DNA of 45,952 bases from Caryophanales bacterium (GTDB lineage: Bacteria > Bacillota_I > Bacilli_A > Izemoplasmatales > UBA1188). Each line of letters starts with the position of its first letter. Within the stretch, counting starts at the first letter, position 1. The notes beneath the pieces are model-generated. The model saw only the letters and a program-made list of their open reading frames with translations, ran no database searches and was not told where the DNA came from. Position numbers and translations under genes: made by a program. Of this stretch, positions 14,849 to 22,317 are shown piece after piece. The stretch is from NCBI GenBank assembly GCA_016287865.1, contig JAEEXP010000007.1, forward strand, positions 1-45,952, read 5' to 3'.

Positions 14849-15352
14849 ATGAAAATTGATAACTATAGAGCCACAAAATTAAAAGAATTACATCTCGTTA
14901 CAGAGGACTTACCAAATAACCTAGAAGTGTTAAAAGAAAGATTTATTGCAGTGCTATATCAAGAGGCTCCAATCTCAGAAGGATTACTTGAAAGAAGAGT
15001 TATAAAATCTGTTGGAATGCAAAAGATTGGAAGGATAATTCAAGAACTTTTAGATAAGTTTCTACCTACTCTTAACTTCAAATATACAATTTATAATGGA
15101 GTTAAATTCTATTGGAAGGATGAAGACAATCCAAAGAATTGTAATATAATCAGAAAAACAGTTGAAGGTGAAAATAGAAGAGATGCCAAAGACGTTCCAA
15201 TCGAGGAAGCTATAAATGCTATCAAATATGTATCAAATGATTCTTTATCTAAAGATGATACAATCAGAGCTGCGGCTAACCTCATGGGTTATACTAGACT
15301 TGGAAGTGTAGTATTACCACTATTCACTGATGCATACAATAAAGCAAAATAA
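14849..15352 (+). CDS. Stand-alone DUF3320-like protein
   Basis: A 167-residue soluble protein. Residues about 28-70 (RFIAVLYQEAPISEGLLERRV followed by a G-x-x-K-I-G-R-I-I-Q segment) resemble DUF3320, a small winged-helix-like module usually found at the C-terminus of large DUF4011/UvrD-like helicases. Here it stands alone, with a basic middle and a C-terminal helix-rich part (195-bp tail, residues 100-167) of no known family. The role is unknown; a nucleic-acid-binding or protein-docking function is inference from the module's usual context. It is one of two plus-strand genes, has its own promoter and ribosome site, and shares a bidirectional terminator with addA. Confidence 0.75.
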   Translation: MKIDNYRATKLKELHLVTEDLPNNLEVLKERFIAVLYQEAPISEGLLERRVIKSVGMQKIGRIIQELLDKFLPTLNFKYTIYNGVKFYWKDEDNPKNCNIIRKTVEGENRRDAKDVPIEEAINAIKYVSNDSLSKDDTIRAAANLMGYTRLGSVVLPLFTDAYNKAK

Positions 15353-15377
15353 AAGAGCGAAATCAATCGCTCTTTTT
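15351..15377. terminator. Bidirectional terminator between the DUF3320-like gene and addA
   Basis: Perfect 10-bp stem AAAAGAGCGA (15351-15360) / TCGCTCTTTT (15367-15376) with a 6-base loop and U runs in both directions. It overlaps the stop codons of both convergent genes. Confidence 0.88.
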
Positions 15378-18300
15378 AATTGTCTTCAATCTTCTTAAAA
15401 ATATCTTTAAGTATTGAATATAAATACATCTTTATAGGCTTATCAGTCTTAGTTTTAAGATAGTCTTTATACGTATTAAGTTGATTTACGTATGCAGGAT
15501 TATCAATATTAGATGTCTTAAAGTCTACAATGATATATTCATTCTCTTTTTCAAGTAAATAGTCAATTACGCCAGATTCATTATCACCAAAATAAGGTAA
15601 TTCATGGAGCTCTCTTAAAGATGGTGTATTAAATAAGAACGTATCTTTGAATTGTTTTAAATACTTGATATAGTGAGTCGCAATCTTCTTCTTTTCGATT
15701 TCTTTATCGAAATCATCTGCTAAAAAGTTAGTAACTTCAAAGAATGAATGGAGTAATGTACCTTTATCAAGAATATCAGTTACTTCCTTTGATACTTCAA
15801 ATTCAACATCATGAGAAGCTTTCTTTCTTTCAATCTTCTCTTTATCTTTGAGTTTTAACTTATCATAAGTAATTGCGTTTGACTTAATATTAGGTAGTTT
15901 CTTATCACCATTTTCAGGTACTATCGGTTCAAACCTTTTATAAACGCTATTATCAAATTCAATCGCATAATTTAGCATATCCATAAGTGAACCAAAGCTA
16001 TAAATATCATTCTTACATTCTCTAAATCCTTCTTGATTGAATAGAGTCAAAGATTCTCTTGGTCTAGTTATCGCAACATAGAGTAATCTATACAATTCAA
16101 TATTTGTTTCTTTTATCTCTTTCTTTAAGAAGAGTTTATGTTTTAAAGTATCGTCAAAACAAATTCCTAAATCTCTAGAATAGTAGCCTAGATGTTGCCA
16201 TGGAGCAAACTTTCCATTAAGTCCAATTATATATACAAGTGGAGCTTCAAGACCTTTAGATTTATGCATAGTCATAATCTTAACGCATTTAAGATCATCA
16301 AACGTGCCAAGACGTTGCATAGTCTCAGTTCTATTAACCTTTAAGTAATCAAAGTAATCAATAATATACTTGAGTGACATTCCACTCTTTACATATACTT
16401 TTATTTGATCAATTAAGATACTAATCTTTATTTCTCTTGATTCTTTCTTATTCAAAGATTGGATTTCTTTATAAATATTAAATCTATTAACGATTTCATT
16501 AAATAAGAATGAAGTTCCATATTGATTATAGATATTTAATAAATCGTTTAAATTATCGTATAAATTCTTAAAATAGAACTCAAACTTTTCAAGCATTCCT
16601 CTAGAATCAGCAATGAATTCAATTATCTTATTGTCATCTTCTTTGATTACAAAACTTCTAAGTAAAGATAATAATGTCTTAACAAAGTTCTCAGTATCAA
16701 CTTCATTTATAGATAATAAATAAACTATTTTTAAAGCATTCTTTAAGAAGATTATTTCTTCACTTGATGAATATTCTTCATCGGCAATTACTACTGATGG
16801 AATGCCATAATCTTCAAATACTTTTTTAAGTTGTTCGAACTTGCCTTGAGTACGACATAAAACCATTATATCTGAGAATTCAATCTCACGATATAGACCA
16901 GGTACATCCTCACCTTTTTCGTTTTTTCTAAATTTATCCTTATCGTATACTAGTTGTTTAGAATTAACTCTGTTTAAGATGTCGGTTGCGAGAAGTTCAT
17001 ATTCATTTGACTTCTTAGTTTTTTCATCTTTTTGGTATTCGATAATCTTGAACTTGTTTTCTATTGGTTCTTCTAGCTCGTAATCTTTATTGCCACATTC
17101 CATTAAATCTTTAAAGAAATCAGATTCAACTTCTGGGTCATGAGATAATTTTCCAAAGATATTATTTGAAATATCTAGAACTTCTTCCTTTCTACTTCTA
17201 AAGTTCATAGCTAGTTCTATCTTTTTGCCAGCTTCATTATTATCATCGCCATATTGATTTAGTTTTTCATTAAATAATGAAGGATTAGCATTTCTAAATC
17301 TATAAATAGATTGTTTGATATCACCAACAACTACAACGTTATTATTAGAAATTAAAGAAATTAATTCTTCTTGAATATCATTTGTATCTTGATACTCATC
17401 AATTAAGAATTCTTTAATCTTAGATTTATATCTATTTCTTATTTCTTCATGTTTAGAAAGAATATTTATACATTCTATTTCAATATCTTGGAATGAGTAT
17501 AAAGAGTATTCTTTCTTAAATTCATTCATCTTAACAATAAGTTCTCTAACAAAACTCATGATTAATGTTTCAACATTAAAATCATTTTGTAGTGATTCTG
17601 TTAACTCATTAAAATCAGCAAACTGGTCTGCAATTTCTTTGCATTCTTTAAAGGTATTTTTAATCTTATCAATACGATCTTCTAAATCTTCTTTTTCGCT
17701 ATCAGTAGCTCCTGTTTTTCTACAAACCAAATGCTTACCATTTTCTTGTCTCGGAATATCTCTTAAGAATACTTGAATAAGTTCCTTAAATCCTTGAGCA
17801 TCTAATATTTCATTAAAATATTCAATATATCGATCAAATACTACTTTAGTTCCTTCTACGCAATCTATGTCGCAAAGTTTTATTAGCGTTTTAATCTTAG
17901 TTCTTAAGAATGGGTCTGTAATATCAATAAGTTTATGTATTTCTTCTTCAGGATAAAAGTTATTAATATAATCATCAGCAACTTGAAGTGGGTCTTTATA
18001 GTTAAGTAAAACATCATAAACATTTAAGATGATATCTTTTATATCGTTCTTATTATCAGCCTCGGTAATTTTGATGACATTTTTAAACTCTTCTTTGTTG
18101 TCTTTAATATAATTATCAAGCATTTCATCAATGAATTTATTAGCCATCATATCGAATATTGCAGGATCACCAATATTAAACTCTTTCGAGAAGCTTGAAT
18201 ATACTATATTTTCGATTAAAAATTTATGACAGAAAGAGTCAAAAGTTGAGATATTCGCCTCATCTATATGTGATAATTCTTCTTTAAGTCTAGGGTCATC

Positions 18301-18546
18301 GAAAGCCTTTAAAGCTTTGATAATTCTATCCTTCATTTCTTTAGCTGCAAGATCAGTGAATGTTAGAATAACCATATTATCTAAAGAGTATCCTTCATCC
18401 TTTAAAAGATGCATAACTCTTCTAGTTAATACAAAAGTTTTACCACTACCAGCAGCGGCACTTACAAGGATATTTTTTGATTCAGTTGTTACAACATTTT
18501 GTTGATCAGGAGTTAAATACTTTAGGAATTCTTTACTTGTCGCCAT
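15376..18546 (-). CDS. addA: ATP-dependent helicase/nuclease subunit AddA
   Basis: A 1056-residue UvrD-type helicase with a C-terminal RecB-like nuclease. Motifs: LTPDQQNVV (Q motif, 11-19), Walker A AAGSGKT (31-37), DEYQDTND (motif II), GDIKQSIYRFRNA (motif III), VTRPRE-like AITRPRESL (motif VI), and in the nuclease domain GVIDYLLEKENEYIIVDFKTS with the catalytic D and D-x-K. AddA with AddB resects double-strand breaks and loads RecA. It is somewhat shorter than the roughly 1230 residues of Bacillus AddA. The start at 18546 is chosen for its GGAGG 9 bases upstream; an in-frame ATG at 18579 has no such site. It overlaps the addB 3' end by 14 bases. Confidence 0.94.
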   Translation of the reverse strand: MATSKEFLKYLTPDQQNVVTTESKNILVSAAAGSGKTFVLTRRVMHLLKDEGYSLDNMVILTFTDLAAKEMKDRIIKALKAFDDPRLKEELSHIDEANISTFDSFCHKFLIENIVYSSFSKEFNIGDPAIFDMMANKFIDEMLDNYIKDNKEEFKNVIKITEADNKNDIKDIILNVYDVLLNYKDPLQVADDYINNFYPEEEIHKLIDITDPFLRTKIKTLIKLCDIDCVEGTKVVFDRYIEYFNEILDAQGFKELIQVFLRDIPRQENGKHLVCRKTGATDSEKEDLEDRIDKIKNTFKECKEIADQFADFNELTESLQNDFNVETLIMSFVRELIVKMNEFKKEYSLYSFQDIEIECINILSKHEEIRNRYKSKIKEFLIDEYQDTNDIQEELISLISNNNVVVVGDIKQSIYRFRNANPSLFNEKLNQYGDDNNEAGKKIELAMNFRSRKEEVLDISNNIFGKLSHDPEVESDFFKDLMECGNKDYELEEPIENKFKIIEYQKDEKTKKSNEYELLATDILNRVNSKQLVYDKDKFRKNEKGEDVPGLYREIEFSDIMVLCRTQGKFEQLKKVFEDYGIPSVVIADEEYSSSEEIIFLKNALKIVYLLSINEVDTENFVKTLLSLLRSFVIKEDDNKIIEFIADSRGMLEKFEFYFKNLYDNLNDLLNIYNQYGTSFLFNEIVNRFNIYKEIQSLNKKESREIKISILIDQIKVYVKSGMSLKYIIDYFDYLKVNRTETMQRLGTFDDLKCVKIMTMHKSKGLEAPLVYIIGLNGKFAPWQHLGYYSRDLGICFDDTLKHKLFLKKEIKETNIELYRLLYVAITRPRESLTLFNQEGFRECKNDIYSFGSLMDMLNYAIEFDNSVYKRFEPIVPENGDKKLPNIKSNAITYDKLKLKDKEKIERKKASHDVEFEVSKEVTDILDKGTLLHSFFEVTNFLADDFDKEIEKKKIATHYIKYLKQFKDTFLFNTPSLRELHELPYFGDNESGVIDYLLEKENEYIIVDFKTSNIDNPAYVNQLNTYKDYLKTKTDKPIKMYLYSILKDIFKKIEDN

Positions 18547-20839
18547 TAGTTTTTTCCTCCTTTTCATCATCTTCTCCATATGTGTTTACTTTCTTACTGT
18601 AACAGAATTCATTAAAGTTACAGTACTTACAAGCATCCTCAGAAGGAGTTTGAATAAACTTTTGATTAATTATATCGTTCTTTATTTCTTCAACAATCTT
18701 ATTAGTATCTTCAATTCTAATTCTTAAATCATCAGAACAGCATATTGTATACTTTCTTTTTTGGTTGACTATATTATTGAATATTTCCATTGATTTATCT
18801 TTCTTTAAAATTGAATATCCACTGAATTTTATGTTAGAATCTGGGTCAAATTCCGATGGTTTATGGTTTATATCAATATAGATTATACCTGCTGGATTAT
18901 CATTCTTATATCCATCATTTAATAAGGCATCCATATATATTAAGAGTTGAAGTCCTTCTCTTTTTTCTAGGTCAATATCTGGGATTTTACCTGTCTTATA
19001 ATCAAAGACAAATAAAGAATTATCGTCTTTGTTTTCAGCAACTAAATCTATATATCCTTTTACATAGACAGTTAATTTATCAGATTTAAGATCTTTATGG
19101 AATGGTTTTTCTCTTTCAAGTTTTAAATTATCTCTATCAAAATAAGATCTTAGCTTTTCATGAATAATCGGAAGTGTATCATAGAATATTTCAAAGAATA
19201 CTTTTTCGGTATCTGATGGTTCATATTTAGAATCTTCTTTAACCTTTTTAATATGGTCTTCAAGCATCAATTGAACATCAGTTTGATCAAAATCAATATT
19301 TATATATTTTTTAATAAACTTATGGAAGAAATCACCTAAAAAGTTTGCATACTTAACATCAAATTCTTCCAATTTAAGTGTGTTCTTAAATAGATATTTA
19401 AATGGACAAGATGCATAGTCAGATATAGTTGAATAAGATAATTTTAATTCTTTATTAATGATTTTTGAAAATAGTTCAAAATTGTCAAATTTGAAATTTG
19501 ATTCATATTTGTTTTCTTCCATTTCATCTTTTAAAAAATTATACTTTTTTAAGTTATCTGATTCGTGATGATATAAGAAATATGTGTCTTTAGCTTTTAA
19601 GTATTTTAAGAAATCTCTTTTCTTAGAATACCCCTTAATTAAAGAATGATTAAGTGCATCTTCTTTTTTAAGTCCAAGCTTTTCAATAAACGAAGATGGA
19701 GATAACTCTTTAGCCATATTTTTCTTACAAGTTGAAATATATACAGTTTCAATAGAGTTTATCTTATTTTTAATATGGTCTTCATTATATTCATTTAATA
19801 CTTTACTTGTAGGAAGGTTCTTCTTTTGAATTATCTCATCAGTAATTAATCCATTATATCTAATTGTTGATGGGAATAGGCCTTGGTTAATGCCACACAT
19901 AAATAGAACCTTATTTGGTTCAATATATTTATCAAAGTTAGATGTGATCTTTAATACATTTTTATATGTATCAACTTTAATGTGTGCGTTAAGTAAGAAT
20001 TCTCTTAAATAATCAATAGATGAATATTCTATGCCTGAGAAAAACGAAACTAATGTATTATAAGTATTTAAATTAATATTAGGATATTTTTCTTTATATA
20101 GTTTTAATACTTCTATATCAAGTTTATTATTTGATTCTGAATATACTTTAGCGAAGTTAAAGAAAGTGAGACCATCTACTGTTTCGAATAGAGATACTTT
20201 TCTTTCAATTTGATATGGAATATCAGTATAAGATAAAACATCTTCAAAAACTGAATAGTATTCTTCATTTGATACATAAACAATAATGTCGTTAATATCT
20301 TTGCCTTTATATAGTAGATCAGAAACTAAATCCACTGTATTTTCTACTTCTTCAATAATATTTCCATTATTAACAAGTATTAATTCTTTATTATATTGCT
20401 CAGGTTTATATAATTTAGCTTCAATACCATTCTTTTTTAGCTCATTTAAAGCTAAATGAAAATGAAGATTGCTCAAACAATAATCTATATAAACAATATT
20501 CATTTCCTTAAGACATTCTATATATCCTTCATTTTTAACGAAGTATTTTATATGTTTATCTTTAAAATCTTTATCATCCAAGAATGGTGCAATACCAATA
20601 AGTTCTTTTGCGCCACTCACATTAAGTGGGCCAAAGTCTTTATCTTCTCCTTCTTCTAGTTTCATTACTAAATTATCTAAGTAAGAACCTAAAACTTCAG
20701 TAACAAAGTTTTCAGGTGTTTCAAATGTTAGATTGTATAAGAATTCATCTTTTAGAGACTTAAAAATCCCTTCATTGTAACTTGAAGGGCATATAATCAT
20801 ATTCTTTTTATCTTTTACTAATAATTCTTTTACATTCAT
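18533..20839 (-). CDS. addB: AddB-like nuclease subunit, no P-loop
   Basis: A 768-residue protein whose C-terminal third is a PD-(D/E)XK nuclease with the AddB iron-sulfur layout: C478 (DYASCPF), then C737, C740 and C746 (ACKYCNFNEFC), plus GYIDLV (D598) and DYKTG (D613, K615). The N-terminal two-thirds corresponds to the inactivated helicase fold but has no Walker A motif: the first 30 residues contain MIICPSSYNEGI where Bacillus AddB has a P-loop. Bacillus AddB is about 1160 residues, so roughly 400 are missing here. The gene lies directly before addA (14-base overlap) and after the DAC-like gene (TAATG junction), which strongly supports the AddB assignment. Expected to cut the strand complementary to that cut by AddA. 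Confidence 0.85.
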   Translation of the reverse strand: MNVKELLVKDKKNMIICPSSYNEGIFKSLKDEFLYNLTFETPENFVTEVLGSYLDNLVMKLEEGEDKDFGPLNVSGAKELIGIAPFLDDKDFKDKHIKYFVKNEGYIECLKEMNIVYIDYCLSNLHFHLALNELKKNGIEAKLYKPEQYNKELILVNNGNIIEEVENTVDLVSDLLYKGKDINDIIVYVSNEEYYSVFEDVLSYTDIPYQIERKVSLFETVDGLTFFNFAKVYSESNNKLDIEVLKLYKEKYPNINLNTYNTLVSFFSGIEYSSIDYLREFLLNAHIKVDTYKNVLKITSNFDKYIEPNKVLFMCGINQGLFPSTIRYNGLITDEIIQKKNLPTSKVLNEYNEDHIKNKINSIETVYISTCKKNMAKELSPSSFIEKLGLKKEDALNHSLIKGYSKKRDFLKYLKAKDTYFLYHHESDNLKKYNFLKDEMEENKYESNFKFDNFELFSKIINKELKLSYSTISDYASCPFKYLFKNTLKLEEFDVKYANFLGDFFHKFIKKYINIDFDQTDVQLMLEDHIKKVKEDSKYEPSDTEKVFFEIFYDTLPIIHEKLRSYFDRDNLKLEREKPFHKDLKSDKLTVYVKGYIDLVAENKDDNSLFVFDYKTGKIPDIDLEKREGLQLLIYMDALLNDGYKNDNPAGIIYIDINHKPSEFDPDSNIKFSGYSILKKDKSMEIFNNIVNQKRKYTICCSDDLRIRIEDTNKIVEEIKNDIINQKFIQTPSEDACKYCNFNEFCYSKKVNTYGEDDEKEEKTNGDK

Positions 20840-22197
20840 TATTCGTTTCTTAATGTTGAGAAATCAGCAATAGTAAAGATTTGTTCTGGAAGGTTATCTT
20901 GGCCAAGAGCGAAACCTTTGATCGATGAGTCACTAGATATTTCAATCGCAATACCATAGTTAGATAAAGTTCTTGCAGCAGCAATTCTACCTCCACCTTT
21001 ACTACCTGCATCAATCTTAATGATGGCACCAACCGCAACCAAATCACCATTATAGTCAACAACTGTTGCACCATCAATTGCGACAATTTCTTGTCGTAGT
21101 TTTCTATATAATTGGAAGAATTTTCTGTTTCCGATAACTTTATTTAATACACATGCTTTTTCATTTTCTTTTTGTTTTAAGAATTCATCAAAAGCTAAAT
21201 CCTTAACTGCTTCATATTGTGGGTCATTAGCTTCTTTTAGCATGTTCTTCTTAATCTCATAATATGTTGCGTTAACGATATCGTGAATATTGATATGTTG
21301 AAGAGCTCTATTAACTTCGTTTTCATCAAGGAATGAAATAATACCACCAGATGTTCCAAATGATAAGTCTAGAGCTGTAAGATATACTGATTTAGCGAAT
21401 AATAAATTATCGTTCTCAGATCTACTATGGATGATTCTAATAACTTCTTTGTGGTTATATGGATTCCATCTACCACCACGTTTAGTATATTTAAGTTCAT
21501 TATCATGGAAGATAAGGATTTCACCTTGTTCTGATAAAACGATACCAACTACTTCATGTCCACAATATTCAAGAATTCTTGTGTAATCATAAGGAGCTAG
21601 ACCTAAATCACTCTTTTCAGAGTTTAATTGAAGATATCTTAGAATGAAACCATTTTTATCTATTTCAATAAATGATTCAGTACCATCAGTTAATACGGCT
21701 GAATAGTTTTCTTGCATGAATTCATTAAATCCAATATTGTTTGATGTATTGTCAGCTTTAAGTATTGTGTTTACAAAAATACCATATTGGATTTTAGAAC
21801 CTTCATATGTTCTTTCACTTAATCTAGTTAAAGCATTAATAACTTTAAGAATTACTGTTGCAGCACCAGGGAATAATGCATCTGCAATAGCTTTATTTAA
21901 CGCAGTAGTTCTTAATGCATCAACATATTCAGGACTCATATTAGGTAAAGATTCAATTGTGTTATTTTCTTGGATATATGTAGTTAAAAGTTCAACGTCA
22001 GTTGGAAGGAATGGTTGATCTCTTGAAATTCTAAATCCACTAACCGCGTGAATATCACCTTTAACATCTAATGTTCCATCATAATTAAGCTTAACTAAGA
22101 ATTGACCATCTAAGTCAATTTCAGCACTTATTTCAATGTTTGGATATAGATATTTAACACTATTTTGTAATACTTCTTTTAATCTTGTTACGTTCAT
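20839..22197 (-). CDS. Diadenylate-cyclase-like (DAC / DisA_N) domain protein
   Basis: A 452-residue protein from the chosen ATG (AGGAG 8 bases upstream; the longer in-frame ATG at 22266 has none). The N-terminal 250 residues are of a type I do not recognise, possibly a DACNV-like sensor domain. The C-terminal part (about 265-430) has the DAC fold pattern: VYLTALDLSFGTSGGIISF, then AIDGATVV with the Mg-binding DGA (375-377), then GGGRIAAARTLSNYGIAIEISSD. The RHR motif that contacts ATP in c-di-AMP synthases here reads R-I-A (404-406), so the chemistry or activity may differ. There is no DisA DNA-binding HhH domain and no TM segment. It is the first gene of a set with addB (overlap of 1 base) and addA. 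Identification as a DAC relative is moderately firm; function is not. Confidence 0.7.
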   Translation of the reverse strand: MNVTRLKEVLQNSVKYLYPNIEISAEIDLDGQFLVKLNYDGTLDVKGDIHAVSGFRISRDQPFLPTDVELLTTYIQENNTIESLPNMSPEYVDALRTTALNKAIADALFPGAATVILKVINALTRLSERTYEGSKIQYGIFVNTILKADNTSNNIGFNEFMQENYSAVLTDGTESFIEIDKNGFILRYLQLNSEKSDLGLAPYDYTRILEYCGHEVVGIVLSEQGEILIFHDNELKYTKRGGRWNPYNHKEVIRIIHSRSENDNLLFAKSVYLTALDLSFGTSGGIISFLDENEVNRALQHINIHDIVNATYYEIKKNMLKEANDPQYEAVKDLAFDEFLKQKENEKACVLNKVIGNRKFFQLYRKLRQEIVAIDGATVVDYNGDLVAVGAIIKIDAGSKGGGRIAAARTLSNYGIAIEISSDSSIKGFALGQDNLPEQIFTIADFSTLRNE

Positions 22198-22290
22198 AAT
22201 ATGCTCCTGTTTCTTTATTTTATTATAGATTATATCTATGAGAAAATAAAGGAAAAATTCAAACAATTATATAACTCTAATGTATAAGTA

Positions 22291-22317
22291 AGGCAGGATT
22301 TACTCCTGCCTTTTAAT
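22291..22317 (-). terminator. Intrinsic terminator of rmuC
   Basis: Perfect 9-bp stem AAGGCAGGA (22291-22299) / TCCTGCCTT (22305-22313), 4 bases past the rmuC stop. The U tail on the minus strand is weak. Confidence 0.65.

Follow-up and report, generated by a model that had tools for sequence, protein, structure and literature searches.

Results

Organization of the locus

Three genes follow one another on the minus strand of the window (the whole stretch of 45,952 nucleotides analysed): a gene for a DAC-like protein, an addB-like gene and an addA-like gene. The features are as follows.

20842-22197, minus strand: DAC-like gene, 452 aa without the stop (stop codon at 20839-20841; 22197-20839 with the stop included)
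20842-21426, minus strand: C-terminal DAC-like domain, residues 258-452, with DGA at 375-377, GGGR at 401-404 where the RHR loop would be, and an invariant D423
18533-20839, minus strand: addB-like gene, 768 aa, with a PDDEXK_1 nuclease domain, DYKTG, and the Cys motifs CPFKY and CKYCNFNEFC
15376-18546, minus strand: addA-like gene, 1056 aa, UvrD helicase with AAAGSGKT, DEYQD and the nuclease motif DFKTS
20839-20842, minus strand: TAATG junction between the DAC-like gene and addB, bases shared by TAA and the addB ATG
18533-18546, minus strand: 14-base overlap of addB and addA, with AAGGAGG upstream of the addA ATG at 18546
22213-22251, minus strand: 39-bp dyad CTTTATTTT-N21-AAAATAAAG over the likely promoter, an operator candidate
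22290-22312, strand not assigned: hairpin between rmuC and the DAC-like gene
15351-15376, strand not assigned: bidirectional terminator-like hairpin 3' of addA

The DAC-like ORF ends in GAATAATGAATG, where its TAA shares bases with the addB ATG; addB in turn terminates within addA, and AAGGAGG is positioned for the addA start codon. The three-gene coupling described in the initial annotation, by a TAATG junction and a 14-base overlap, is thus borne out at both joints by the window sequence. Hairpins flank the unit on the rmuC side and after addA, and the three genes are probably co-transcribed. Translation of the DAC-like gene starts at the ATG at 22197, which is preceded by ACAGGAG. A longer ORF opening with TTG (to 22266) has no support, because the homologues begin at the same Met.

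The window and three congeners share an exact copy of the dyad; in the congeners it also lies over the promoter of the DAC-like gene (L018:2555-2593, L019:9433-9471 and L021:9247-9285). It has one change in a fourth congener and is degenerate in genome G089; the chance expectation is 0.01 matches, according to the shuffled window. Its position at the head of the unit suggests a common regulator.

The products of addB and addA are divergent, yet nuclease and helicase domains and motifs are present as expected (Pfam PF00580, 2.6e-57, and PF12705, 4.1e-28), the helicase and nuclease subunits being encoded together. Both fall short of the NCBIfam equivalog cut-offs (334 of 708 bits for addA, 43 of 904 for addB). 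The window AddB (18533-20839), very divergent and short at 768 aa, keeps its nuclease and cysteine motifs. Convergent with addA, a stand-alone 167-aa protein is encoded at 14849-15352 on the plus strand; it matches only the C-terminal end of the anti-phage protein ProA (NF058533, 1.7e-21), and its match to DUF3320 lies below the cut-off.

The DAC-like protein is a distant relative of diadenylate cyclases

No family was assigned to the window protein by Pfam, NCBIfam, PADLOC or PDB sequence searches, and our literature searches found no paper describing the DAC-like family. PF02457 had no match in the window protein in the Pfam scan; the best of its relatives, from a plasmid of Agrobacterium vitis, reached 19.5 bits, below the cut-off of 27. 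Profile comparison was more informative. When a profile of eight family members was set against a DAC profile for which archaeal DacZ was the anchor, the C-terminal ~190 aa aligned with an hhalign probability of 83% and a score of 39.8, against maxima of 21.5 for column shuffles (n=300) and 15.9 for tiles of seven unrelated protein families of the genus (n=54). With DacZ alone as target the score was 35.8 (null maximum 18.7), and with DACs other than DacZ it was 29.2 (null maximum 17.8); CdaA-anchored profiles gave weak scores. Pairwise comparison with DacZ gave z=5.9, a value reached by 0 of 200 shuffles.

The joint alignment keeps in register the strand with DGA and the one after it, the helix that follows the substrate loop, and the final two strands. 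D375-G376-A377 is invariant in all family members. The GTRHR of DACs aligns to GGGR-x, and all members with the region present carry GGGR-x or close variants instead of RHR (or RHH/RHL). In Mycobacterium tuberculosis DacA, an RHR-to-AAA change eliminated both ATP binding and activity (PMC3328451). Among members with the region present from Alphaproteobacteria, Clostridia and Bacilli, the D, G and A of this motif are invariant together with S399, G402, R404, A406, A407 and D423.

The initial annotation had called the protein a DAC relative. That relation stands at the profile-profile level, where 39.8 clears the nulls, and fails at the level of PF02457. Judged by sequence, the window protein is a divergent, soluble relative in the DAC-fold superfamily and not a canonical DAC; what we claim is homology to the superfamily, because of the profile match and the register, with the RHR feature replaced. 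By hydropathy the protein is cytosolic (maximum 19-residue Kyte-Doolittle mean of 1.46), and Pfam finds no DNA-binding domain in it. AlphaFold models of the full protein and of the domain, built from few diverse sequences, were too poor for use (mean pLDDT 45.6 and 49.8), and a Foldseek search of the PDB with the domain model returned no DAC, a result that is meaningless at a mean pLDDT below 50. Residues 105-256 show strand patterns recalling those of DACs. This N-terminal half was considered as a second, degenerate DAC and rejected, since its scores are barely over the null and its registers inconsistent.

The coupling to addAB is a trait of the genus

Six of the 7 genus genomes encode the DAC-like protein, and it was found in none of the 83 from elsewhere in the order. 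Gene order, as checked in relatives, is kept in each of the five other congeneric genomes with a readable locus (G084, G085, G086, G088 and G089): addB directly follows the DAC-like gene, and addA comes next where the contig is long enough. The contig of G087 stops inside addB and says nothing on gene order or on absence of the DAC-like gene there. The TAATG junction recurs in G089, and the two genes abut or lie a few bases apart in the other four. Directly upstream of the DAC-like gene is lon in three of these five congeners; in the window an esterase gene and rmuC separate the two. None of the four addAB loci read in sister families has a DAC-like gene: addB stands after rlmN, a name given by eye from the sequence, except in one locus, where it is preceded by a small neighbouring ORF. 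Since the order is kept across the genus and missing from the sister-family loci, the coupling of the DAC-like gene to addAB is a genus-level trait.

Identity across the genus is 60-65% for the DAC-like protein, compared with 28-33% for AddB, 37-39% for AddA, 46-52% for MutS2, 46-62% for Tig and 69-74% for Lon. The DAC-like protein is thus conserved about as well as trigger factor, not far below Lon and well above AddA and AddB.

A c-di-AMP degrader is kept where the canonical synthase is missing

CdaA/DacA is the usual sole c-di-AMP synthase in this order. PF02457 is found in 0 of the 7 genus genomes and in 78 of the 83 others (Fisher p=1e-7, a value that is overstated because the genomes are not independent). 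The phosphodiesterase of c-di-AMP, GdpP, is present with DHH/DHHA1 at full length in five of the seven genus genomes, and half of it in a sixth. In the window genome it comprises PAS, a degenerate GGDEF, DHH and DHHA1, has intact DHH motifs and is fused to ribosomal protein L9. The contamination of that genome is 6.7%; the same pattern is repeated in G089 (97% complete, 0% contamination) and G086 (92%, 1%), the two cleanest genus genomes of at least 90% completeness. The L9-fused GdpP at G000:C47:3313-5754 (L048) is 95% identical to that of G087, whereas between these genomes identity falls to 57% for addA and 50% for addB, which reflects either a mixed-species MAG or an unusually variable addAB locus.

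Neither PstA nor the ydaO riboswitch was found in the genus, an uninformative result because the CdaA-bearing family f3 also lacks PstA. YbbR is undetectable across the whole order and so says nothing on CdaA loss. The retention of GdpP in this genus of rumen Bacilli, where no known c-di-AMP maker is present, suggests that another, unrecognised synthase exists. We found a single candidate for it, the DAC-like protein; its catalysis is predicted from sequence, and this protein would be an obvious replacement.

Relatives outside the genus are solitary and lie in mobile or defence contexts

A single-protein query of the genome contigs gave no matches, the alignment-based scan recovered the genus only, and viral contigs, when scanned, yielded no relatives. 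Relatives with ~25-31% identity are located on plasmids of A. vitis, Vescimonas and Paracoccus, on a putative gut phage contig and in the Bacilli genome G516. Of ~390 Bacilli genomes sampled beyond the genus, two have relatives, and in one of these the match is short and partial. All these distant relatives are solitary genes and none is beside addAB. Two of them lie inside phage-defence islands: the A. vitis relative adjoins a type II CBASS operon, and that of G516 stands in island L045 (G516:C114:58500-78000) with two AbiLi-like ATPases, SoFic and AbiQ/ToxN. Others sit on plasmids that resemble conjugative elements or are rich in transposons. G516 carries both CdaA and a DAC-like relative; therefore the family cannot be viewed simply as a stand-in for CdaA, and beyond the genus, at any rate in G516, the gene is accessory. 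On the two island loci, a defence origin of the family is plausible.

Discussion

We favour, with moderate confidence, the view that the DAC-like protein replaced CdaA as the c-di-AMP synthase of the genus, within one operon with AddAB. Our confidence stops there because the RHR loop is changed and catalysis is a prediction. CdaA, the usual membrane cyclase, would have been lost in the genus and the DAC-like protein would have taken over c-di-AMP synthesis. Two C-terminal DAC domains may pair face to face, with the DGA aspartate joining two ATP into c-di-AMP and the GGGR-x loop presumably taking the phosphate-binding role of GTRHR, and GdpP would remove the product. We infer the catalysis, its product and any functional tie to AddAB.

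It is unlikely that the protein is instead a domesticated phage-defence protein, from a solitary, horizontally moving family, that gives a (cyclic) nucleotide alarm or acts otherwise on infection and was fixed beside AddAB, itself a destroyer of phage DNA. The neighbourhoods of the A. vitis and G516 relatives, the plasmids that carry the others and the scattered, rare occurrence of the family in Bacilli are consistent with such a past. However, the protein is core-like and not patchy in the genus, with a fixed neighbourhood and strong conservation, PADLOC models have no match to the family, and the defence-island cases are two.

Also doubtful is a non-catalytic dinucleotide-binding or regulatory protein, in which the DAC fold would be a ligand module, c-di-AMP synthesis would have been lost and GdpP would have another role. 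The family-wide replacement of RHR agrees with it, as would the missing PstA and ydaO if they were informative. Against it, the invariant residues around DGA and GGGR look like a kept active site, and GdpP retains its catalytic motifs.

Rather improbable, in our opinion, is a new class of DAC-fold enzyme, marked by the GGGR-x phosphate loop: having spread as a solitary phage-defence gene whose product makes a dinucleotide (c-di-AMP or another), it would have been acquired next to AddAB and have taken on the role of essential c-di-AMP synthase in the genus. If true, it would place an essential messenger and a DNA-break nuclease under one promoter.

The DNA-end sensor put forward in the initial annotation, in which AddAB action at breaks would alter how much nucleotide the DAC-like protein makes, much as DisA output drops on DNA damage, is very improbable: it can call on the coupling of the genes in the genus and on the precedent of Bacillus subtilis DisA, while the relatives found outside the genus are not near addAB, the four sister-family addAB loci read have no DAC-like gene, Pfam finds no DNA-binding domain, and the DAC-like protein changes much more slowly than AddB and AddA, so there is no sign of a tightly co-evolving interface. 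The absence of CdaA with GdpP kept points instead to housekeeping c-di-AMP synthesis, and CdaA replacement accounts for more of the data than the sensor does.

This genus, with GdpP but no synthase that is recognised, suggests that c-di-AMP producers would escape profile-based surveys. Replacement of CdaA by a distant DAC relative, with kin in mobile and defence contexts, would be a clean and directly testable case.

Among known systems, the anti-phage protein DS2_3 (NF053872) gives weak matches (E ~0.01-0.02) to three family members over the DGA stretch, at ~13 bits against a cut-off of 630, so the DAC-like family is not a member. DisA offers a parallel as a DAC linked to recombination, which in B. 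subtilis involves RadA/RecA (PMC6547438, PMC8645862). However, its DAC domain is N-terminal, while the DAC-like domain is C-terminal and ends the protein, which has no Pfam match to the DisA linker or helix-hairpin-helix. CdaA/DacA (TIGR00159) shares the DAC topology; unlike it, the DAC-like protein has neither N-terminal transmembrane helices nor RHR and is undetected by PF02457. The closest system is DacZ (PF19294 and PF02457, NF041371), the essential single DAC of Haloferax volcanii (PMC6741144). The DAC-like protein has no DACZ_N (PF19294) match, whereas the DacZ control matches at 3e-40; the GTRHH loop of DacZ becomes GGGR-x, and a ~60-aa insertion precedes the DGA helix in a protein of 452 aa instead of 268. 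Nevertheless, both are soluble, with a C-terminal DAC domain that retains DGA, and DacZ is the best sequence match to the DAC-like protein among all the DACs tried.
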